In this document: one piece after another, positions 9,001-64,000 of the stretch | Numbering within the stretch: the first letter of the stretch is position 1 | How the letters are laid out: each line of letters opens with the position of its first letter | Source of the DNA: Owenia fusiformis | Lineage: Eukaryota; Annelida; Polychaeta; Sabellida; Oweniidae | Direction of reading: 5' to 3' | Assembly: GCA_903813345.2 (NCBI GenBank) | Contig: CAIIXF020000005.1 | Location: forward strand, 18,975,375-19,039,374 | DNA: 64,000 nt | The notes under the pieces: generated by a model | What the model was told of the DNA's origin: nothing | What the model saw: only the letters and a program-made list of their open reading frames with translations | Databases searched by the model: none | Program-made: the position numbers and the translations under genes

Positions 9001-12000
9001 AAAGAATTTTAGAATGTTTCACTGGTTGTTTAAAACTGTGATTGCTGTTGAGACATAGTGAGCCACGATTTCACTAATTTTGCTATTCATCACAACACTA
9101 AGGTTGGTATCCCCATACAAAAGTGTATCTGATTTCTTAGAGGTTGTTAAATTTCTGAAATCGGGCAGACATGCCAGTTCGTCGAGTCCTGCAAGAAGCA
9201 ATTCCCTTTCATTTATGAGCAGTGGACATTTAATTAGAAAATGAGAAGTGGTTTGATGAGCTGCACCACATGGACATTTGGGATCATTAACTGTGGTAAA
9301 ATTGTGGGCATGTAAATGGCTATTAAGCAAGAGTCCAGCTCTAAGTCTGTTGAAAGTAATTTCTGTTTGTCTTGGCATGGTGTACTCCATTTTGGATGTG
9401 GGTAAGGATGCATGGCTCCTTTGCTTCCTGACTGATCTTTTGAATCTTGAGATTGGCTGCCCAACTCGGATAATTGGGTCCCTGCATTTCTTACCAATTA
9501 TAATTCAAGATTCTTAAATCTCATGTTTTGTCAGACCTTGTATGTCTTAACTGTCTAGAATCTTTATTTAGTAGGAAATTATTAATTTTATACCATTATA
9601 AAAAGATAATGTGTTATGAACAATATATACATACCTCATATTTTGAACCTTCTATGCTTTGCCTTGTAGGTCCATGAACTTTTTAACTTATGTTTACAAA
9701 TAACCATATTTTTGTTTCTGCAACTATTTCTAGGTACTGACCCATCGACTGATCTGCGAGGAACAGGACTTCTAGGCTTAATGACAATATTGTACTGCCT
9801 GTCTGACTCTAAGATGCAGCCTATTATGAAAGATATTTACAAACTCTCTCTGCATGAAACTCAGGTATGTGTAATAGTTTGTAGCTTTGTTTTTATTTCA
9901 CCACCAAAAAGTGGTGACATATTGCTATGGTCTCGTTTTTTTTTTGGCAGCGGTTGTTGTTTGGTGATTAGTGGTTGGTGGTTGGCGATTGGTGGGTGGC
10001 TGTTGGCATCTGCACTGTTTAGACTGATGTGTAATAGTTTATAGCTTTGTTTTTATGTCACCACCAAAAAGTGGAGTGGATTGGTTGGTGATTGGTGATT
10101 GGCGATTGGCGGTTGGTGTGTAGACTGACTTCAATTTTTTTCAAAATCATCTACAAGTTATCAGAAGTTCAAATCTGACTATATATTTAAGATTTCACCT
10201 TCAATGACCTTTTCAAGGTCAAAAAGGTCTTTTTTCAACTTGCTTCAAATATTGATCAATTTTATTTCAAAATCATCTACAAGTTCTCAAAAGTTCAAAT
10301 CTGACTATAGATTTGACCTTCAATGACATTCTCAAAGTCAAAAAAGATTTGACCTTCAATGACCTTCTCAATCATTTCTTCTTAATCATTTAGAGTGAAC
10401 CTTCCAGGACTTAAAAGGGCTCAGAACTTAAATCTCATCTTAAAATTCCCCAGAATTAAAATATTTTAAGATGATAACTTAAATCCATCAGTTTTGATGG
10501 TTATAAAGTGTATGTAAAAGTCATTTTTTCTTTCTTGCTTTGAAAAATGTTTTTATGAATTAGTAATTTTTTATTATTGTATAACTGTGCTAAAATATAC
10601 ATGTAATTTCATATAACATATCAATCTTTTGAATTGATATCCAAACTTTTATCACATGAAACATTGAGTGCACAATAAGTAATTTTACTAATCTGTATTT
10701 AATGTTGTAATGTTAATAACTATATTTCAAGAGGGGGAATATCCCAGAATTCATAGAAGAACCTATCGCCATATAAAGATGAACCTCTAGAGGTTCAATT
10801 TTACCCAATCAGCAGTTTCAATTTTGAGTGACAGTGAGAGATTCATCCATATGACATCTGGGGTATTCCCTCCTCTTCTCTAATCCTAATATAATTCTAT
10901 TCTATCCATAGCCAAATGTTTGTGACAAAAACACATCCAAATAATACATGTACTTACCAGTTTCATAATTTTATAGCCATACTTAATCCAGGCTTAAAAA
11001 TGTACCTGATTCCCTATCAAATTGAAATCGAAAAGGCGAGTGATCTATTTATTCATTTCTGATGCCAAAAATATTTGTTTCCTTCTATACTACACCCCCA
11101 AAATGCAATCTGATTTTCGACGCTGTTCCGGTGCCAAATTTCGGTGCCGTTTCGGCACCAAATGGACTGACTAGTCTGGTAGCAAATTTTGGTGTCCAAA
11201 GGTTTCGGTGTCGGAACGGTGTCGAAACGGCGCAGGAACAGTGCCGAATTATTTCGATGCCGAAACGGCGTCGAATTATATTGGCTGTGTAATACAACCA
11301 TTTTATGAAAGGTACCTTCCCCTTCCCGGCCTAATATAAGTTAATGGTCACCCCTTAAATCCTTATGTCATACAGATTGTTAATCAGTGTGTATAATGTT
11401 GAACATATTTAAGATAAAAGATGTGAAGTATTGTAGGAAGTTAAAGTATGGCTTATATGTTACACCCTTTGCATCATGAAGTACTTTTTTCTCAATTTTA
11501 ATTTTCATGAGGTTAAAGATTATGAACATTGGAATTTCACTGGTCAAGCTAACTAAGATGGCTTCTTATAGCCCACCTAACCATGGACTTTCAATAGGAT
11601 TTCTATGGAATGCCCATGACCTAACCAACAGAGTTACTTTCAGGAAAAGGTGACACATTTTCATTTACTTGTCCCCTAAGTACTTGTACATGTACAGTAT
11701 ATGTTGGCTCAACCACCCATGTTTTGCCTCTTAGTCTCTCCCTCCTCTTCCACCTGCTCCTCCATCTTCAGGTTGTGTGGGTATTCCAACGCCTTCTTCT
11801 TCTTCGCTCTGGGTTTCTCCAGGGACCATAAGGTTAGCAACTGTGGTTTCAATCATGGTTGTATAAGCTGTTGAGAAATCCTGGATCCACATTTCATTGT
11901 TGTTGGCATACTGTCTTACAAGGTCAATGGTAAAGGAATCCGCGCATGAGAAATAGTTGCACTCTGATTGGCCAGTTGGTGTGACAATGATGTGTTTGAC

Positions 12001-15000
12001 GAGGCACATATCTGAGTTGAGCATCATTGGACCATTGCCTGCAGCTTGACGTCGCCGACGACCCTGGGGAGGTGGACGAGGATTTCCTGGAATCCATTGC
12101 CACCTAGCTTCCTCATTGGCTGGTGCAATGTTGATCTGGATCCAGTTCCGGTTCAACAGATCACGGAAGTAGGCATTATCGAGAAGATCAGCATTTCCTA
12201 CCCATGGGCCATTAAACCCAGAGTCCCCTGATCGAGCCCTGCCCAGAGTATGTGCACCTAGTAATGCAACCGATCCAGTCTCATCTAAACCAAATGCATC
12301 ATCAAAAAAGTCCAGTACGTCATTGAGTGTACCATGACCACCATTGTTAGGGAACATTCTTATTTCAGCAGTATTTGGTGATGTTTCACAATCTTGACGG
12401 CCAATGCGAAATTGTATGTCAGGGTACACTGGGTTACACCCCTGTGGGACACATGCTTCTGCTGCACGTCTTAATGCTTCTAAACCAGCAAGCTGCCAGA
12501 AATCTGCCCTGGATATGAGGTTTGCATAGGGTGCATAGACAGGCTCAAGGTCATTGATGTAGATTTGCAGGCCTGCATTATCGGAGTTCGCAAGATTGAC
12601 ACATCTGAAATAACACAATTTTGAAATATTATTGGACTTAATTTAGCAATGCAATATTTGTTTCTGTATCTTGAGCAATTGAAACTTCTTTTCTATAAGT
12701 AGATCACAATATAATATTATTAATAATCAAGTTAAATGATGATAGAAGAACAGTACTGTGTGACATTTTGTCATATTAATGAAGTATTATATTCATACTA
12801 TCACTCCAAACAGACTCAATACGAGGTCTTGTTTATTTAAAATAAAATATCTCCTTACCCATCACAACCTCCTACACAGTCGTGAAATGCTAATCTGACT
12901 AGTCCACCAATGCGTGGGTGATCATTGTTCACCACTTTGGCTTCAATGTGCTCTTCAAGGGCACTTCGCATCTGTAAAATCTCATCAATGGTGAGATTTG
13001 GTTGTTCGTCATTAACTTGAGGTTGAGCGCTATCAGATTCACTTGGGCCACTGGCCTGGTTACCATTTGGAGGTTGTTGGTTACCATTTGAAGCTGGTTG
13101 GTTACCATTTGAAGCTTGTTGATTACCATTTGAAGCTTGTTGATTACCCATTGAAGCTGGTTGGTTACCATTTGAAGGTCGTGGACCACTAGGGCCACGA
13201 GATTGCTTAGCTTGTCCTGCTCCTAATGCCATCAACAAGCAAGCCAAATGTAAGACTCTCATGTTGGTTTATGGTAGCGCAATTCTGGAATAAAATATTT
13301 CAAGATTTTGAAAGTAGTTTGTACTTATACAATGCATAATATCACAAATGGGTACATTAACTACCATGTACATGTACACTGTATCTGCTACCTTGGTAAG
13401 ACACAAGAGTCAGATTCTGAACTTTTCCGTAAATTTCTGTCATAAATAATTTACGATAGGACAACTATACGGAAAATGTTTAAAACCAATTCTGAATTAT
13501 TCCTTAAACTTGTCCCCATCTTCTGTGTTTATGTCGCAAACTAGAGCGATTTGGACAATGATCTTTAAAACACCTGTGTGCGCGTATCGAGATTGCTCCA
13601 TTGAACTCGTCCAGTGTATTTAATGAGGGGCCCACCTTAATTATCCCAACGAACGAAGTTCGGTAGGGATATAGTGAAGCCCTCCGTCCGTCAGTCCGTC
13701 AGTCAGTCCGTCCGTCCGTCCGTCCGTCCGTAAGATAACTCAAATACGAGTTGACGGATTTTCTTCATATTTAGTGGAAAGATGTATATTGGTGAATAGT
13801 TGTACGCAAGATGGCCGCCGCTTTAAAAATGACGGGACTTTTTCGCAAAAACCATAAATTTTTCATTCTAAACCAAAGTAATTCATATTATTGTTTGAAA
13901 TTTTGGTAGTATATTCGCAACATCTATCTATTTCACATATATTCCGTGTTTTTCATCCTGACCCCCAGGGGCCGTGTATGGGGGGTCAGGAAAAAAGTAA
14001 TTTTCGCTAATTTTTAGATCTTTCTGAAGTATGGCTTTATTATACTCAAATGAAAGGCAATTAAGAGTAGATTGCAAATATTGTATCTTTTTTCTGATTC
14101 GAGCCTCGTAAAATTCAAAATGGCCGTCTAATGTACAATTTCGCAATAATTTTTCGATCCCTTCAAAGTATGGCTATATTATACTCAGTGGAGTGGATCA
14201 CAATTATGGTATTATTCTTCAGATTTGTACCTCAGAAAATTCAAAATGGCTGCTTTGCAGGAATTCGCAATTCTAAAATCTAAATTCTTCAATTTTAACC
14301 AAAGAAATGAGTATAATTGATTGGAATTCGGTAATTGATATTTTGTTCGTTGGGATTTGCTACTCCGCGGAGTTGCCATTGTCTAGTTCAATTACAATTA
14401 AATTCCTGTTTTTGGGCTTATTATTATCATAAATATATGTATAGGCTATTTGTATAAATACTGCAAATCGATTGCAATATGATAGAATGCTTATTTTACC
14501 CAAGTTAGAGTTAATTTTGTATATAAATGTGAAATAATTTGGGGAATCTACTAACAGTTTGGGGGTTTCTCCAAATTTATCGTCGTTAGGGAAATGATGT
14601 CACATTACACAAGAGCGAGCTACGAGTATTACGTCATCAATATGCGCTGGATGATATGGAGACATTCATTGTGACATTTGTTTTGGGGAATTCCTAACAA
14701 TGGCCAAATACTTTCACTTTCTTTATTAGAGCAGTTTCACATTTGATTAGATAGCGAAAGCATATTTATTGCATTTAATTGATGAAAATAAATCTAATTG
14801 ATGATATTCTTAAAAAACTCATTTTTATTAAGCCCTTGATAGTTATATGCATCCTTTAACAATTGAATTTACGATACACAAAAGTTCAGAATCAGACTCC
14901 AGTATGGTCAATTAAGTATTATGTGGGGAAGGTATATAGTAATCACGACTTGTATATAGCAATGTGCCAAAACATAAAATCATGCTATTCTTCATAGGGA

Positions 15001-30367: not shown

Positions 30368-32859
30368 CTAAGGGAGAGGCAAAAATAACACCAACATTTA
30401 ATCATGTGTTATAAATATAACTACCTTATCATTTTAATAACTGTTCCATTTGTTTGTTATCATATTTCTTACCAATATCAATCAAATAATTTTTTGAAGC
30501 ACTGATGCTCTAGAAGTCCTTGAATGAGAACTAGCGCTAACACTAGTAATGCAAGTTATCCAAATCTAATGTATTATTTGATGGGATAAAATCATAAGAT
30601 ATCCAATATACCCTGACATTATGCCCTCAGAGATTCAATATCTCCACTTTCTCATTGTTTATTTTGATATTTATTATATACCCGTAGTATATAGATGGAT
30701 TTGGCAATGCTGTTAAGTTCTTTCAGTTTTTTGCAAGCATTTCAAACAAAATTATTAGAAATTGATTGAAATAAAATTGCTCAAATGAACTTGCACCAAC
30801 TTTAATATAAAATGCAGAAGCTGCACTGTTTTTATGAATGTTTGCTTCCCTGATTTCTACATTCCTGTACATACAATATGCATTTACATTGTCCTTCTAA
30901 TAAGTCACCTGCCGTGTCTGAAACACATGGCCCATATGGCTTGTCTTATTATACAAAGTTCATACAACAACAAAGTGATGAAAATTTCTTTTCAAATTCA
31001 TCATCTGAGTCATATTTCGCTTCCGCTGCTAACTCAGCGGGAGTTTTCCTTTTACGTCCTATTTGGCCTGCGCTACTTTCTTCAGGAAGGCCAAATGGAT
31101 TGTTGGGGTCTTTTTTCTTCAACCCATACTGAAACATATGATAAAACAGTCAAATGAAACAATACTAATATTGGTATACCTTCTTCAGCAAGTTCTGCTT
31201 CAGCTGCTAGCTCAGCTGGAGTTTTCTTTTTACGGCCAACAGAGCCAGCTGCCGATTCTTCCGGAAGGCCGAATGGGTTATTTGGATCCTTTTTCTTAAG
31301 TCCATACTGGATAAGCAGCAGTATACAGAGATATCTATATCAATACCTATATACATGTATAAGATATCAAGTTTGATACATATGTAATGTAATTACACAT
31401 GCTGTTCAATTATAAACAAACAATTGGTAATACTTAAACAGATATACATATTATTTATGATTTTAAGATTGGTAAAACTTTCCACAAAAAGGTCTTATTG
31501 TTGAATTAATTTACATTCACATTAAGAATAGATTGATCTACAGTACATGATTACACTTTGTCTGGGTGATATCATTTTTCTCATGTTCTATTCACGTGAA
31601 AGTGATGAATACACAATGTAAACAGGCATGGTGCACATTTAATACAGTATGCACTGGCGGATCTGGGGCCCAGGTCCCCTCCCCTTGGAGAGGCCCATAA
31701 AAAATTGGGCCCAAAAAAGGCCTTAAGTCTCCAAAAAGTGGGCCTTCTTGGCTATTATTAGACCTTTTAAGGCCTTGTATTTTAATTTTGGGACAAATTT
31801 TAAAGAAAATGGGCCTCAAAAAGATTTTCTGCTCAAGCGCGGACATTTTAGCAGACCAGTGATTTGCTCCCCCCCTTGTTGGTTCCCAGATCCGCCCCTG
31901 GTATGAGGTTATTCAGCTGCTGATATTAATATCATATTGAAATTATCACTGATGCCTCAACATTGCAAAGAGTATTGATACTGCCACATTCTATTGTAGT
32001 TTATAATTATACTCTATGCTCTGCATTGTTATACAACACTGCTATTGTTCTCTGTTCTTTCTCAGCTGTACCATTATCATAATTATGCAATTTTTTGTAT
32101 TAAACATCAGTCATAACCAAGCCAAATGGAATACACTGTATTGGAATCTATGTTAAATCACAAACTCTATATGTTAATTGATTAATCTAAGTCATGCTTG
32201 TCATTATGATCTATAGCGACTGAACAACCATAGCAGTAAGCGGCCTTAATTCTATTTTCTTGCACTAACATGTTGGCCTAAGTATAATTGAGTTAGTATA
32301 CCATGCTGCAACTATATAAAACGAGTACATGTACATTACAATCTCCAGTAAATAAGAATGGTCATCTAAATGTCCAAGTGCCCAATTAGTCATCGGGTCA
32401 ATAGACTTCTATTCTAATTGTAGGAGATTTGGCATCTATTAGAACTACAGTTGCCAGTTGCAAAGGCCTGAAAGTGTTTCATGGAAAGTTTCAAGTAGGG
32501 TGAGGGAGAGATATTCAGTTTATGTTTGATCAGTTGACAAGCTGATTATATGCATCATGTGTCTAGTGGGCATTTCATCACCGAGTTTTAAATCTCAATT
32601 ATTGCTATATATACTTAACCTTGTATGTCCAGTGATGCTCGATCATGCCATTTACTAGATACAGGGCTGTCAACTTGGGACCACCTAATATGAGTGACTT
32701 CAAAATGTTGGACACCTAAGTCCAAATCTGAACACTTTTGTCCAAATTTTGAACACCTTTGGCCAACTTTTAAACACCTTTGGCCAAAGTTTGAGCACCT
32801 TTGCCAAACTTTGATCACCTCAAATTTTTCGCGCTCGCTACGCTCGCGGTGTCGTCAAT

Positions 32860-32890
<31 letters not shown>

Positions 32891-35799
32891 AGGGGGGGGT
32901 AGGTACGAAAATTTCCAATGGACATGCGTGACATATACGGGATTCGCGTGACAAATCCGAACAAATTGCGTTCGGTTTTTTTCCGACGTTCGTATTTTTA
33001 CCGTATCGTAAACATATTTCGAAAAATTTTCTACAGAAATATTTTAGCGTGACAATTACCAGTTAAAATGCGTATTTGCGTGACATTTTCTGTCACGCAA
33101 AAAAAACTGGCGTGACTTCAAATTCTTCAGCAAATGCGTGACAAATACGCAAATTGCGGGACAGTTGACAGGCCTGTAGATACCAAAAAGCAAATATATT
33201 TGTAATGGCTTCTAGCAATGTCATGTTTATCTTAGAAAAAATGACAGTTTGTCATTGAAAAACAGAAGAGAAAATGGGACAGGGGATACAAGTTAGTGGA
33301 CTGGCTATACCTAATTGAAGCTGTCGGCATGTGCATACTAGACAGAGTGATACATGGCTCAGATGGAGTAAGGACTTATGCCAAAATGTGCTCATATTGC
33401 TCAATATACAATATTGTCATAGTTAAGTTATATTTGTTCAATTATTGGCCAGATCTGTTTGGTTTATTCATGTGGTCAATAATTCATTATATTGGAATGA
33501 TCAGTGTATCATAGACTGTGAGCAAAGATTGACATAATGCTCCCTAAGATAGATTATGGAAGATTTGCAGTCAAGTAGGATGTGTTGTTAGGTGTGCTGC
33601 CATCTGACATCTACAATACAAACACAAATAGCAGTTCAGGTATATAGTTTTGAGCAGTCGATCTAGGGCTAGGCACTATTGCACGACACTGTCAAACCTG
33701 GGTTTCCAACCTTATCACGAATACCCTGGCGCATTTCTTCCCTTTCTTCTTCCATTTTGCGGTGTTTCTCCTTTCTGCGTTCTTCTGCTTCCAGTCGTGC
33801 CTGGACAACTTCTGGATCCTCTTCCTTGGCCACATCATCATCTTCTTTCTTATCATCACCTCCTATGACACCTGCAGTTGCACACACTTATGATTACACA
33901 CACATAACAAATATAATAGAGTACCACATCTGCAGTTTTGATATTTCCATCTATTTTCAGGGAACTGTTTTTGAATATGTGAATATGGAAGCTCAATAAT
34001 AGATAACAACATATTCCTCAAAGAGGGATCGATGAAATTCATCAATTTCATGCACTTCACTTGAAGTTTCAGATTTATGTGACTATCTGAATTCAGTTGG
34101 AATAAGATGGAAATGTTTGATACTGCAGTGTAGTGGTACTGTTGTACAAACACCAAACAAACCTTATCTCTAATTTCTTGTCTCATGGTTTCACGTTCTT
34201 CCTCCATTTTACGATGTTTCTCTTTTCTACGTTCTTCAGCTTCTCGTCTTGCTTCAGCAATTTCAGGATCTTCGACACCATCCCCCTCACCACCATCATC
34301 ATCCTTTTTATCATCTCCACCAATTGCACCTATATCGTCATCATGCAGTTAACTCAACACTGACATCTCAAACATTTAAAACCACTTGACGAGATACTAC
34401 ATTATTTTTTTTACTTATAAAATAAATCTTTATGGATCCATACATATGTATAGTTTATGTGACTTTATCTTTAATTATATTTTACAGTGTTACAATAGGT
34501 ATAGCTAATCTGTTCAGTGTTATACCTAACGGATTTGGCACTAGACTCATCATCTTGATAAACTAAATGCTGGAATACATATAAATATTTTGATTTATAT
34601 TCATACTCCTCCTGCATGCCTTATTCAGGTATATACTTTTCTTTTGCGGTATTAATCTTGCTCATTGGCTGATGAAGGAGTATGGATATACAACATAATG
34701 ATACACATGTACATAATTGATTTTAATCAGTTTTTCTGTTCTTAATGTCCAATACAAATGCATTACTATACATTGTGGTGTTGTATTCAATAAGTATGAA
34801 ATTGAAAGAATTTAATTTAAATATAATATTTGAATACTTTTTGTTCTTTATTCATTGTATGCATGAACAAGTTATTTGAGTTGTGGTGTGTTCCTTTCTA
34901 TACAGTCATGCAATTAGTATTGCCTAATTCTAAAAATAACTACATAAATATATGCAATCCATGCGTTATGACAAGCTTGCAATAAGTGTGCATATCTGGT
35001 GGAGGGAGTATTCCTTGTTTAATTTGTGTTAAACTACCTTTACTTTTTGAGACACCTGTTCACAGTTCCTGATTGCAATAGACTGATAAAGAGAACAATT
35101 CACACCACTTGATCGATAGAAGAATCCGCAAATTACCTTCGTATGATCACAATACTTTCAATTTCAACTTTCAATACACATTATATAGCCATACTTTATA
35201 TCAGCCTTACCTTTAACAGATTTAAGTTGGTTGCCAACCAGTTGCTTGGCAACGAAGGATGCCATGACTACCTGAGTGGAGGCTGAATGATGCAGTTAAC
35301 AGTAACTGATCGTAGGTGATGATACTATAGGTACTGTTGTGAGATGTTTGACAATGCTACATGTATTTGGCCTCTTCAGTCTGTGGAATTCACACGGCCA
35401 CTACACAAACAAACAAGAATACAATAGACTATCAAACTGAAAGAATGACTTAAAGAGCTCAACAGGCGACAGCTATTCCGGCCCTTGATTACTACTGCAT
35501 CCTGGGTACTAGACTATGTGGTTAACCCCTACAACTCAATCAGGTTAAGTATATTGACAACATCGTGAATTGGTATCCATGGTAACTGCTGGCATGATTA
35601 AATGCCTTGGAAACATGCCAGCAATAGTTAATTACTTTGTCCTAATGACAACACAGTGGAAACTATTACCATGGAAACCATAATATATCACTGGACAGAG
35701 ACACAGACAACAAACATACTGACAATCCTATGAGAGATCCTTACCCTTGACTGAATTTAGCTTGTCTCCTACCACTTGTTTTGCGATGAAAGATGCCAT
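30258..35799 (-). CDS. CPLX: Complexin, with tandemly duplicated alternative exons 1, 2 and 3
   Basis: Complexins are small soluble proteins that bind the assembled SNARE bundle and both clamp and promote synaptic vesicle fusion. Reading 5' to 3' on the minus strand: exon 1a 35799-35745 or 1b 35265-35211, exon 2a 34329-34163 or 2b 33871-33711, exon 3a 31306-31180 followed by exon 4 30367-30258, or exon 3b 31128-30949 with its own stop. The CaaX form has 152 residues, the 3b form 133. The accessory and central helices are in exon 2 (EAEERRKEKHRKMEEERE, then MRQ(G/E)IRDK). The conserved Tyr of RDKYG is the first codon of exon 3, and KKKTPAELAAEAE follows. The N-terminus MASF(I/V)AKQ(V/L)VG is of the insect type. 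All junctions are GT-AG. Sequence conservation in all seven exons argues that none is decayed. Both first exons have an acceptor-like site just upstream (TTCCTTCACAG before 1a, CCTCCACTCAG before 1b), so 5'UTR exons probably lie further upstream. Confidence 0.9.
30949..31128 (-). CDS. CPLX: Complexin alternative terminal exon 3b, non-CaaX end
   Basis: A paralogue of exon 3a: both start YGLKKKDPNNPFGLPEES and share RK(R/K)KTPAELAAEA. It then diverges to KYDSDDEFEKKFSSLCCCMNFV and a TAA. Three adjacent cysteines near the end could be palmitoylated, and KKFSS resembles a basophilic kinase site; both are inferences. No GT inside the divergent tail gives an in-frame join to exon 4. Two minus-strand AATAAA signals (30675-30670 and 30663-30658) lie between this stop and exon 4, consistent with a separate 3' end. 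Confidence 0.8.
   Translation of the reverse strand, partial: YGLKKKDPNNPFGLPEESSAGQIGRKRKTPAELAAEAKYDSDDEFEKKFSSLCCCMNFV
31180..31306 (-). CDS. CPLX: Complexin exon 3a, leads to the CaaX exon
   Basis: Starts in phase 0 with the Tyr of the RDK|YG junction and ends in phase 1 after AELAEE, at donor G|GTATACC. The gap between its donor and the 3b acceptor is only about 51 bases, too short for comfortable splicing of 3a to 3b. If both were joined, the frame would shift and stop within 3b. Confidence 0.85.
31652..31900. mobile_element. GGCGGATC-ended MITE with 5-bp target duplication
   Basis: CACTGGCGGATC at the left and GATCCGCCCCTG at the right are inverted. GTATG flanks both sides (31647-31651 and 31901-31905). 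The interior is a G/C-rich string of GGGCCC and AAGGCC palindromes. It lies in a complexin intron. Relatives are at 38103, 39596, 47224 and 47602. Confidence 0.7.
32662..33176 (+). mobile_element. CAGGGCTGTCAACT-ended element with poly-G tract, copy 1
   Basis: Starts CAGGGCTGTCAACT and ends AGTTGACAGGCCTG, with TAGATA on both outer sides. It is near-identical to 48088-48593. It contains repeated TTTGGCCAA blocks, a CGCTCGCTACGCTCGCG palindrome, a run of about 30 G, and several ATGCGTGACA repeats. No protein family was recognised. It lies in the complexin intron between exons 2b and 3a. Confidence 0.75.
33711..33871 (-). CDS. CPLX: Complexin alternative exon 2b
   Basis: 161 bases, phase 1 in and 0 out. 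It encodes VIGGDDKKEDDD..., an acidic lead-in, then EVVQARLEAEERRKEKHRKM, then EEEREEMRQGIRDK. It retains the SNARE-binding central helix. Acceptor CAACTGCAG and donor AAG|GTTGGA are plausible. If spliced after exon 2a it would be read GTG TCA TAG, an immediate stop, so the two exon-2 copies exclude each other by frame. Confidence 0.85.
34163..34329 (-). CDS. CPLX: Complexin alternative exon 2a
   Basis: 167 bases with the same phases as 2b. It encodes AIGGDDKKDDDGGEGDG, then a helix EIAEARREAEERRKEKHRK, then MEEERETMRQEIRDK. Compared with 2b the acidic linker is Gly-rich and two residues longer, and the central helix has MRQE where 2b has MRQG. The donor (AAG|GTTTGT) and acceptor (GATATAG) are ordinary. 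Confidence 0.85.
35211..35265 (-). CDS. CPLX: Complexin alternative first coding exon 1b
   Basis: Encodes MASFVAKQLVGNQLKSVKG (last Gly split), ending in phase 1 at donor AAAG|GTAAGG. Same length as 1a. The start ATG is preceded by GTAGTC and follows an acceptor-like CTCCACTCAG, so this may be an internal exon with upstream UTR. The N-terminal segment is the part of complexin needed to promote fusion. Confidence 0.85.
35745..35799 (-). CDS. CPLX: Complexin alternative first coding exon 1a
   Basis: Encodes MASFIAKQVVGDKLNSVKG (last Gly split), ending in phase 1 at donor AAGG|GTAAGG. A pyrimidine-rich acceptor (TTTTCCTTCACAG) lies about 35 bases before the ATG, placing the exon border near 35834. 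It differs from 1b at five positions (I/V, V/L, D/N, K/Q, N/K), all outside the MASF core. Confidence 0.85.
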
Positions 35800-48087: not shown

Positions 48088-48593
48088 CAGGGCTGTCAAC
48101 TTGGGATCACCTAATATGAGTGACTTCAAAATGTTGGACACCTAAGTCCAAATCTGAACACTTTTGTCCAAATTTTGAACACCTTTGGCCAACTTTTAAA
48201 CACCTTTGGCCAAAGTTTGAGCACCTTTGCCAAACTTTGAACACCTCAAATTTTTCGCGCTCGCTACGCTCGCGATGTCGTCAACGGGGGGGGGGGGGGG
48301 GGGGGGGGGTAGGGGTAGGTACGAAATAATTTCAAAGAACATGCGTGACACATACGGGATTCGCGTGACAAATCCGAACAAATTGCGTTCGGTTTTTTCC
48401 GGCGTTCGTATTTTTACCGTATCGTAAACATATTTCGAAAAAATTCCTACATAAATATTTTTGCTTGACAATTACCAGGTAAAATGCGTATTTTGCGTGA
48501 CATTTTCTGTCACGCAAAAAAAACTGGCGTGACTTCAAATTCTTCAGCAAATGCGTGACAAATACGCAAATTGCGGGACAGTTGACAGGCCTG
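48088..48593 (+). mobile_element. CAGGGCTGTCAACT-ended element with poly-G tract, copy 2
   Basis: Nearly identical over its whole length to 32662-33176, including TTTGGCCAA blocks, CGCTCGCTACGCTCGCG, the G run (about 24 here) and the ATGCGTGACA repeats. The shared length of about 510 bases with few changes suggests recent activity of the family. The flanking duplication is less clear here (GTAT). Confidence 0.75.
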
Positions 48594-48686
48594 CGTATGT
48601 ACATTGTTTTCGTGTTCCAGTATCGATAACTATCAGGAGTTAGTGGAGACATACATGTAGTGAACTCCAAACTTGTCTATAGAAAG

Positions 48687-49498: not shown

Positions 49499-57570
<8,072 letters not shown>

Positions 57571-59094: not shown

Positions 59095-59335
59095 CCAATA
59101 TTATAATGAATACTAACAATTAGTTCATTGAATACTGGCAATAATGTAATGAATATTGCCAATATTATAATGAATGCTGGCAAAAGTTTATTGAATACTG
59201 CCAATATTATAATGAATGTGGCAATAGTTTATTGAATACTGCCAATAGTTCATTGAATACTGCCAATAGTTCATTGAATACTGCCAATAGTTTAATGAAT
59301 ACTGGCAATAGTATAATGAACATTGCCAGAAGTGT
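59095..59335 (+). repeat. 21-bp minisatellite
   Basis: Units of the type AATACTGCCAATAGTTCATTG repeat about ten times with spacing near 21 bases. As 21 is a multiple of three it yields a spurious open frame of NTANSSL repeats at 59232. Confidence 0.75.
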
Positions 59336-60060
59336 CACTTTTATGAACTCTTATAGTAGTTTGATGAACACTAGATATGGTACTTTTAATTGTGTAAATA
59401 ATGTGAATGACAGAGAACATAATTTGTCATATGCCATTGAGTGGAAAACTAGTCTGGTATCGCATTCCCAAATCCATACTGGAGAAAGAAACATATCATA
59501 GTAAACTAAATTTAGTAATTTACTATAATAAACATGCATGTATGTTGGCAGAAAAATAGCCTAATATACTGTTGTTGAATAGAGGTAGATTCAAATCATT
59601 ACTTAAAGATAATTTTGATTCAGGTAAAATGAAATATTTTTGGAACAATACTAATTCAGGATGGTTGCAGGGGTTGAACTATGCAATCATTGAACAAAAC
59701 ATATTGCAACCATTTACATTTCAATGTGAAATGGTTGCAGTTTATAATGGTTGCAGATTACAATGATTGTATAGAAATGGTTGCGCAGTCGATGAAAAGG
59801 GGTTGACTTCGCTGGGTTGATGGTTGCACATGATTGCTTATCATTGTACAATTGTTTTTCCTTTGATCTTAGTAGTTGAAACAATCAGTTTCAATGATTG
59901 AGGGAAACGGTTTAAGTTGGGACTTTAAAGGTTGAATTTTTCATAAGGGTATCTCGAGATAGACGTCCTTGGTCAAACATAAGTGAATTTTTGACACTCC
60001 ACCATGATGCATTAACAAAGCACATAACATCTCTGTATGTACAAATGTACTTTATATATA

Positions 60061-62736: not shown

Positions 62737-64000
62737 ATGAAGCCTTGTGTCTTAATTGTGTCTTGCCTCTCCCATTCCTCTGACCCTATAATGAAGCCTT
62801 GTGTCTTAATTGTGTCTTGCCTCTCCCATTCCTCTGACCCTATAATGAAGCCTTGTGTCTAAATTGTGTCTTGCCTCTCCCATTCCTCTGACCCTATAAT
62901 GAAGCCTTGTGTCTTAATTGTGTCTTGCCTCTCCCATTCTTCTGACCCTATAATGAAGCCTTGTGTCTAAATTGTGTCTTGCATCTCCCATTCCTCTGAC
63001 CCTATAATGAAGCCTTGTGTCTTAATTTTGTCTTGCCTCTCCCATTCCTCTGACCCTATAATGAAGCCTTGTGTCTAAATTGTGTCTTGCCTCTCCCATT
63101 CCTCTGACCCTACAATGAAGCCTTGTGTCTTAATTGTGTCTTGCCTCTCCCATTCCTCTGACCCTATAATGAAGCCTTGTGTCTTAATTGTGTCTTGCCT
63201 CTCTCATTCCTCTGACCCTATAATGAAGCCTTGTGTCTTAATTGTGTCTTGCCTCTTCCATTCCTCTGACCCTATAATGAAGCCGTGTGTCTTAATTGTG
63301 TCTTGCCTCTCCCATTCCTCTGACCCTATAATGAAGCCTTGTGTCTAAATTGTGTCTTGCCTTTCCCATTCCTCTGACCCTATAATGAAGCCTTGTGTCT
63401 AAATTGTGTCTTGCCTCTCCCATTCCTCTGACCCTATAATGAAGCCTTGTGTCTAAATAGTGTCTTGCCTCTCCCATTCCTCTGACCCTATAATGAAGCC
63501 TTGTGTCTAAATTGTGTCTTGCTTCTCCCATTCCTCTGACCCTATAATGAAGCCTTGTGACTAAATTGCGTCTTGCCTCTCCCATTCCTCTGACCCTATA
63601 ATGAAGCCTTGTGTCTAAATTGTGACTTGCCTCTCCCATTCCTCTGACCCTATAATGAAGCATTGTGTCTTCTTTCCTTGCCTCTCCCATTTCTCTGAAC
63701 CAAAACTGAAGCCTGGTGTCTTGTGCCTTGCCTCTCCCATTCCTCAGAACCAAAAATGAAGCTTGTCTCTCACACACTCTGACCCTATAATGAAGCTGTG
63801 TGCCTTGTACCTTGTCTCTCTCATACTCCCAACCCTATAATGAAGCCGTATGTCTTATGCCTTGCTCTTCCACACTCTCACCCTGTAATGAAGCCGTGTG
63901 CCTTGTACCTTGTCTCTCTCATACTCCCAACCCTATAATGAAGCCTTATGTCTTATGCCTTGCTCTTCCACACTCTCACCCTGTAATGAAGCTGTGTGCC
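62737..64000 (+). repeat. 54-bp satellite array, open at the window end
   Basis: Units of 54 bases (AATGAAGCCTTGTGTCTTAA, TTGTGTCTTGCCTCTCCC, ATTCCTCTGACCCTAT) repeat about 18 times with few changes to about 63700. They then pass into a more diverged form with a larger period of about 105 bases (TGCCTTGTACCTTGTCTCTC alternating with TCTTATGCCTTGCTCTTCC). As 54 is divisible by three, long open frames appear on both strands (63082-63348 plus, 63292-63777 minus); these are by-products. Confidence 0.9.

Follow-up and report, generated by a model that had tools for sequence, protein, structure and literature searches.

The minus strand of the window, by which we mean the whole 64,000-nucleotide stretch of Owenia fusiformis DNA that was analysed, carries a complexin gene whose exons lie in the order 1a-1b-2a-2b-3a-3b-4. 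Three of its four coding exons are doubled. We consider it probable that this apparently lone complexin gene has undergone an ancient tandem duplication of each of three successive coding exons, and that each mRNA contains one copy from every pair. The exon order confirms that given by an earlier, sequence-only reading of the same DNA.

Structure of the gene

The exons and associated signals are listed in Table 1. Exon 4 falls beyond positions 30949-35799, the range to which the sequence-only reading had assigned the gene. Exons 1a and 1b both exit in phase 1, exons 2a and 2b enter in phase 1 and exit in phase 0, and exon 3a enters in phase 0 and exits in phase 1. Exon 3b also enters in phase 0, and is open as far as its own stop codon. 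The two copies in pairs 1 and 2 have identical entry and exit phases, while those in pair 3 share the entry phase, and share the exit phase only if a donor at 30909 is used. Exons 2a and 2b, at 167 nt and 161 nt, are both 2 mod 3 in length; exon 3a, at 127 nt, is 1 mod 3. The protein assembled from the first copy of each pair (all-a) has 152 residues, and that assembled from the second copies (all-b) has 131. When all seven exons were used as tblastn queries, no convincing further exon copies were found in the window.

Table 1. Positions of the complexin exons and neighbouring signals, numbered from the first letter of the window
Feature	Position	Strand	Content
Exon 1a	35834-35745	-	ATG 35799; 35 nt 5′ UTR, then MASFIAKQVVGDKLNSVK and the first base of the next codon
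Exon 1b	35271-35211	-	ATG 35265; 6 nt untranslated, then MASFVAKQLVGNQLKSVK and the first base of the next codon
Exon 2a	34329-34163	-	Acidic linker, accessory helix region and SNARE-binding central helix (...EERRKEKHRKMEEERETMRQEIRDK)
Exon 2b	33871-33711	-	Second copy of exon 2 (...EERRKEKHRKMEEEREEMRQGIRDK)
Exon 3a	31306-31180	-	YGLKKKDPNNPFGLPEESAAGSVGRKKKTPAELAAEAELAEE; joined to exon 4
3a-3b gap	31129..31179	-	Exactly 51 nt
Exon 3b, coding part	31128-30949	-	YGLKKKDPNNPFGLPEESSAGQIGRKRKTPAELAAEA, own tail KYDSDDEFEKKFSSLCCCMNFV, stop TAA 30951-30949
Possible exon 3b extension	30909..30948	-	To strong donor CGGCAG/gtgact after 30909, 40 nt past the stop
Possible poly(A) signals	30663..30806	-	ATTAAA 30806, AATAAA 30675 and 30663; would make 3b a terminal exon
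Exon 4	30367-30258	-	ESIIPAGMREYTDKVKDIPGQVAAKAGEVTEKCSIQ, stop; CAAX-type box CSIQ; one copy found

The intron between exons 2b and 3a contains a stretch rich in the word GTCACGC, with a long run of C, at 32694-33163. Frames at about 48196-48676 resemble this stretch by eye.

Identity of the encoded proteins

Two of the eight possible exon combinations, all-a and all-b, were scanned against Pfam. Both matched the Synaphin family (PF05835, cut-off 27 bits), with scores of 135 bits (E 3e-39) and 138 bits (E 3.4e-40) respectively. Among PDB sequences, squid synaphin A (1l4a, E 3.8e-15) is the nearest to the all-a protein, followed by complexin-1 (E 2.3e-13); squid synaphin A and mammalian complexin-1 are thus the closest solved relatives by sequence, with the central helix in common. 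Across the 2a/3a, 2b/3b, squid and mammalian sequences 27 columns are invariant. Residues R34, R45, R49, K55 and Y56 of the alignment (alignment A1) are common to both exon 2/3 copies, squid synaphin A and mammalian complexin-1, and we take them to be the SNARE contacts R48, R59, R63, K69 and Y70 of rat complexin-1. Pattern searches for relatives of alignment A1 gave 298 hits among viral contigs and 497 among bacterial and archaeal genomes; as expected for an animal gene, no hit was confirmed.

Reading frames of the exon combinations

All eight combinations of one copy from each pair were translated, and all eight maintained an open frame. The suggestion in the sequence-only reading that up to 2x2x2 proteins could be encoded is therefore borne out at the level of open frames. 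The dead ends that it had listed were also all seen in the translated joins. Joining 2a to 2b reads ...DKVS followed immediately by a stop, omission of exon 2 reads VWT and then a stop, and joining 3a to 3b shifts the frame and leads to a stop after 15 codons. A further dead end, absent from that list, is the 1a-1b join, in which the frame is shifted and a stop is met 16 codons beyond the shared lysine. Double inclusion is unproductive for all three pairs. Messages containing both copies of a pair, or lacking exon 2, would be frameshifted and probably lost by nonsense-mediated decay.

These properties had been described as a frame-locked splicing code, a wording that our analysis does not support. 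Exons 2 and 3a are phase-asymmetric, so that retention of both copies, or skipping of both, produces a frameshift with no need for special evolution. Asymmetric exon phases alone give the frame lock; since any tandem copy of a phase-asymmetric exon shifts the frame, we rejected an evolved frame-lock code as a special feature of this gene. The gap between exons 3a and 3b, estimated previously at about 51 bases, has exactly that length. The accompanying proposal that it is too short to be spliced is plausible but unproven, and the frame already spoils the 3a-3b join. Some invertebrates do splice introns of about 50 nt.

Splice sites

Splice sites were scored with a rough consensus based on general frequencies rather than on this species, and were ranked among the 461 AG and 457 GT sites in 8 kb. 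On this scale the acceptors ranked 1 (exon 1a), 6 (1b), 169 (2a), 24 (2b), 14 (3a), 99 (3b) and 2 (exon 4) of 461, and the donors 2 (1a), 1 (1b), 34 (2a), 53 (2b) and 39 (3a) of 457. Because their acceptors are so strong, exons 1a and 1b look less like alternative first exons than like internal exons lying behind an unseen 5′ exon, or like exons that accept a spliced leader. The acceptor of 2a is poor and that of 3b modest, and the donors take intermediate ranks in 2a, 2b and 3a. Weak or middling splice sites are often seen in regulated exons, and the poor 2a and modest 3b acceptors suggest that these two copies may be used rarely or under tight regulation.

RNA pairing between flanking introns was evaluated for six exons and in no case exceeded chance. 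Exon 2a is surrounded by an imperfect 28-nt inverted repeat (34111-34138 and 34350-34377, 75% complementary), one of eight inverted pairs. The pairing of its introns was equalled by 48 of 500 shuffled sequences, and that around the other five exons by 41-427 of 500. These pairings were rejected as evidence for RNA stems that loop out exons.

Two C-terminal tails

Exon 3b carries its own stop, and exon 4 is therefore coding only when it is reached from 3a. On the 3a route translation continues into exon 4 and finishes with CSIQ, a CAAX-type box. Proteins made by the 3b route diverge from the shared sequence after AELAAEA and continue into a cysteine-rich tail (SSLCCCMNFV), finishing with KYDSDDEFEKKFSSLCCCMNFV; its end, CCCMNFV, is without a CAAX box and has no cysteine four residues from the terminus. 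Neither the 3b stop nor this switch of C-terminal tail was mentioned in the sequence-only reading. A final glutamine in a CAAX box favours farnesylation, and from the sequence we infer that the tail encoded by 3a and exon 4 is farnesylated at CSIQ. That the 3b tail might be palmitoylated at its run of three cysteines is a guess. Scored for a C-terminal amphipathic helix, the exon 4 region gave a muH of 0.39, which was matched by 45 of 2000 shuffles, and a shorter cut gave 0.35, which 230 of 2000 matched. For the 3b tail two cuts were scored, and 218 and 331 of 2000 shuffles did as well.

There are two ways in which a 3b message could end. The 581-nt stretch before exon 4 contains five poly(A)-type hexamers, compared with a mean of 2.1 in 300 shuffles, a count that fits 3b as a terminal exon. 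The donor after 30909 scores 9.3; the three other listed candidates reach 2.2-3.3, and the 1a and 1b donors 10.0 and 11.4 respectively. Use of this donor would give a 220-nt 3b exon, 1 mod 3 in length, that exits in phase 1 as 3a does, an agreement with a chance of 1 in 3. It fits an internal 3b exon joined to exon 4, the latter then being 3′ untranslated sequence. The rule for nonsense-mediated decay places the critical distance from stop to junction at 50-55 nt, and the 40 nt that would separate the 3b stop from this junction fits escape from decay. The same protein is produced from 3b whether it is terminal or joined to exon 4.

An alternative is that the locus makes two fixed products, 'a' (1a-2a-3a-4) and 'b' (1b-2b-3b), for example from two promoters or as nested, interleaved genes with separate 3′ ends. 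In its favour, all-a and all-b are each complete Synaphin-family proteins; against it, the phases permit every mix of copies. The stop and possible poly(A) signals of 3b would provide one of the separate 3′ ends, but the strong donor past that stop, which has the phase of 3a, suggests that 3b can join exon 4. Likewise the b copy is the downstream one in each pair, by naming, but the strong 3′ splice sites directly upstream of 1a and 1b suit internal exons more than a pair of first exons. We consider two fixed products unlikely.

Age and constraint of the exon copies

Synonymous differences between the copies (pS) are 0.88, 0.82 and 0.68 for exon pairs 1, 2 and 3, whereas the corresponding nonsynonymous values (pN) are 0.12, 0.15 and 0.12. 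Synonymous sites are saturated in pairs 1 and 2 and nearly so in pair 3, and amino-acid identity within pairs is 72-89% (74, 74 and 87% by tblastn). Third codon positions hold 57 of the 88 differences between copies (binomial p 1.7e-9 pooled, <0.001 in each pair). This excess, together with the Pfam Synaphin E-values, indicates that the exon copies are not due to chance.

Neutral drift of one copy was simulated at 0.5 substitutions per site in 2000 runs. The simulation gave means of 11.6, 36.0 and 23.4 amino-acid differences for exons 1, 2 and 3, on average more than twice the observed numbers (5 of 18, 13 of 53 and 4 of 37 residues respectively), and a stop codon arose in 50%, 88% and 74% of the runs. 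The exon 1 pair, with 18 codons, is the weakest case, the simulated minimum of 3 being lower than the observed 5. All three pairs look old and apparently constrained. The view of the sequence-only reading that the copies look functional thus holds up, by the low pN at saturated or near-saturated pS, the excess at third positions and the neutral simulation. This constraint covers exon pairs 1-3 only, the 3b tail and exon 4 being without a comparison sequence. Flanking introns of the copies, compared over up to 200 nt, showed no significant similarity (best E 0.044 in six comparisons). The order in time of the three duplications is not resolvable, because synonymous sites are saturated or nearly so and bootstrap ranges overlap.

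Only three of the 13 differences between exons 2a and 2b (R/L, T/E and E/G) fall in the helical part that runs on from ARREAEE, so that a choice between them would mainly change the acidic linker and the accessory region. It may be that exon choice is real and yet some copies, 2a being the best candidate, are minor, serving rare cell types or a decay switch rather than protein diversity. This would agree with the weak 2a acceptor (169 of 461) and with the immediate stop in the 2a-2b join. However, a pure decay switch has no need of a conserved reading frame, and 2a/2b pN is low at near-saturated pS. In the 30-residue central helix stretch, moreover, each of the two copies agrees with squid synaphin A at all but two residues, and they differ from each other at three. 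A merely minor role for such copies therefore seems to us improbable, and we favour productive use of both members of each pair. The comparison with squid, a single alignment, also suggests that the exon 2 duplication may date back to the divergence of the phyla.

Copy number in the genome

No complexin match was found outside the locus in the 498-Mb assembly, all four PF05835 matches and all six matches of the all-a protein lying here. The all-a search picked up exon 1a at no better than E 0.08, and 1b was absent from its matches, so that a stray exon 1 elsewhere could escape. The genome apparently contains a single complexin gene. This supports duplication exon by exon rather than of a whole gene, as proposed from the exon order. 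An assembly artefact merging two complexin loci or haplotypes, which the sequence-only reading had raised as a possible objection, is very improbable, as we found no point in its support, it does not fit the interleaved (not side-by-side) order of the copies or synonymous differences that are near saturation and far exceed haplotype divergence, the flanking introns of the copies are without significant similarity, and no second complexin locus was found in the assembly.

Lineage markers in the assembly fit a protostome and probably an annelid. The mature miR-2 sequence, which is protostome-specific, occurs in three exact copies within 3 kb, and let-7 in one. The erythrocruorin linker domain matched at three places on a single contig, one of them with an internal stop, whereas the mollusc haemocyanin domain matched nowhere; the control genomes for these two domain searches were prokaryotic and so offered no positive control. 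A search for COX1 found no match.

Other features of the window

A frame at 11731-12642 on the minus strand matches the plant/fungal-type haem peroxidase family (PF00141) with 59.8 bits, against a cut-off of 27, in an animal genome. Just upstream of it, a frame at 12855-13268 (minus strand) has no Pfam match, but by eye contains repeated SNGNQQ and a peroxidase-like RLAFHDC. On the plus strand, a frame at 49499-49963 resembles the triose-phosphate/nucleotide-sugar transporter family (PF03151) with 24.6 bits, below the cut-off of 30; by eye it is SLC35-like. Frames at 50630-51286, 59145-59501 and 63292-63834 have repetitive translations and, as judged by eye, consist of short tandem DNA repeats.

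Discussion

We propose that in this complexin gene one exon of each pair is selected, and that all of the exons are used. The exon 1 pair would set the N-terminus of the protein, the exon 2 pair the accessory helix and the SNARE-binding central helix, and the exon 3 pair the start of the C-terminal domain. With 3a the protein would continue through exon 4 to a CAAX tail that is presumably farnesylated, while with 3b it would close with a short, cysteine-rich and possibly palmitoylated tail. The domain names are those used in PMC5445133; according to that paper, the C-terminal domain is held necessary for inhibiting release, and the role of complexin prenylation is poorly understood beyond synaptic targeting.

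If the three parts were chosen independently, one gene could tune release by cell type. Each neuron would then mix its own N-terminus, accessory and central helix, and membrane tail, and up to eight complexins of graded clamp and trigger strength would come from one locus. We put this forward tentatively, and regard it as somewhat doubtful. Mammals have four complexin genes. The division of clamping and triggering among the complexin domains is disputed, and the arguments have often come from interspecies swaps. A gene in which each exon pair exchanges nearly one domain would provide nature's own form of such experiments.

The mechanism of tandem exon duplication and exclusive choice has been well described (PMC9013439); we found no passage there on limits set by frame or by steric constraints. 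The vertebrate SNAP-25 exons 5a and 5b are alike in being an ancient tandem duplication, spliced in a mutually exclusive way, within a release-machinery gene that is present as a single copy (PMC2581893). They differ in that SNAP-25 has one pair rather than three, encodes another protein, and has had its exon choice shown experimentally, in mouse (PMC2581893). In the present assembly the SNAP-25 domain (PF00835) gave two matches, on different contigs, with no tandem pair of the domain. The present gene, apparently the sole complexin gene of this invertebrate, would add to SNAP-25 another case in which exon duplication diversifies the release machinery.

Alternative tails are known from the single Drosophila complexin gene, in which splicing selects the CAAX-box or the non-CAAX tail of Cpx7A and Cpx7B (PMC10312600, PMC5445133 and PMC4611016). 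The exon 7 alternatives in that gene encode approximately the last 20 residues and are mutually dissimilar in amino acids (PMC10312600, PMC5445133, PMC4611016). Here, in contrast, the choice of tail is tied to a duplicated exon 3, the non-CAAX tail has a cysteine triplet, and exons 1 and 2 are doubled too.

Several sets of mutually exclusive exons occur in the muscle myosin heavy chain and tropomyosin genes. For TPM1, peptide evidence for five mutually exclusive exon events is given in PMC9741552. Our gene resembles these in having multiple tandem exon pairs, but they encode contractile proteins, whereas here three of four coding exons are doubled in the gene for a protein of about 131-152 residues. 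Tandem exon choice and alternative complexin tails were already known. Among the titles and opening lines of abstracts listed in searches of open-access literature, none describes a complexin with such an exon plan; prior annotation is quite possible.
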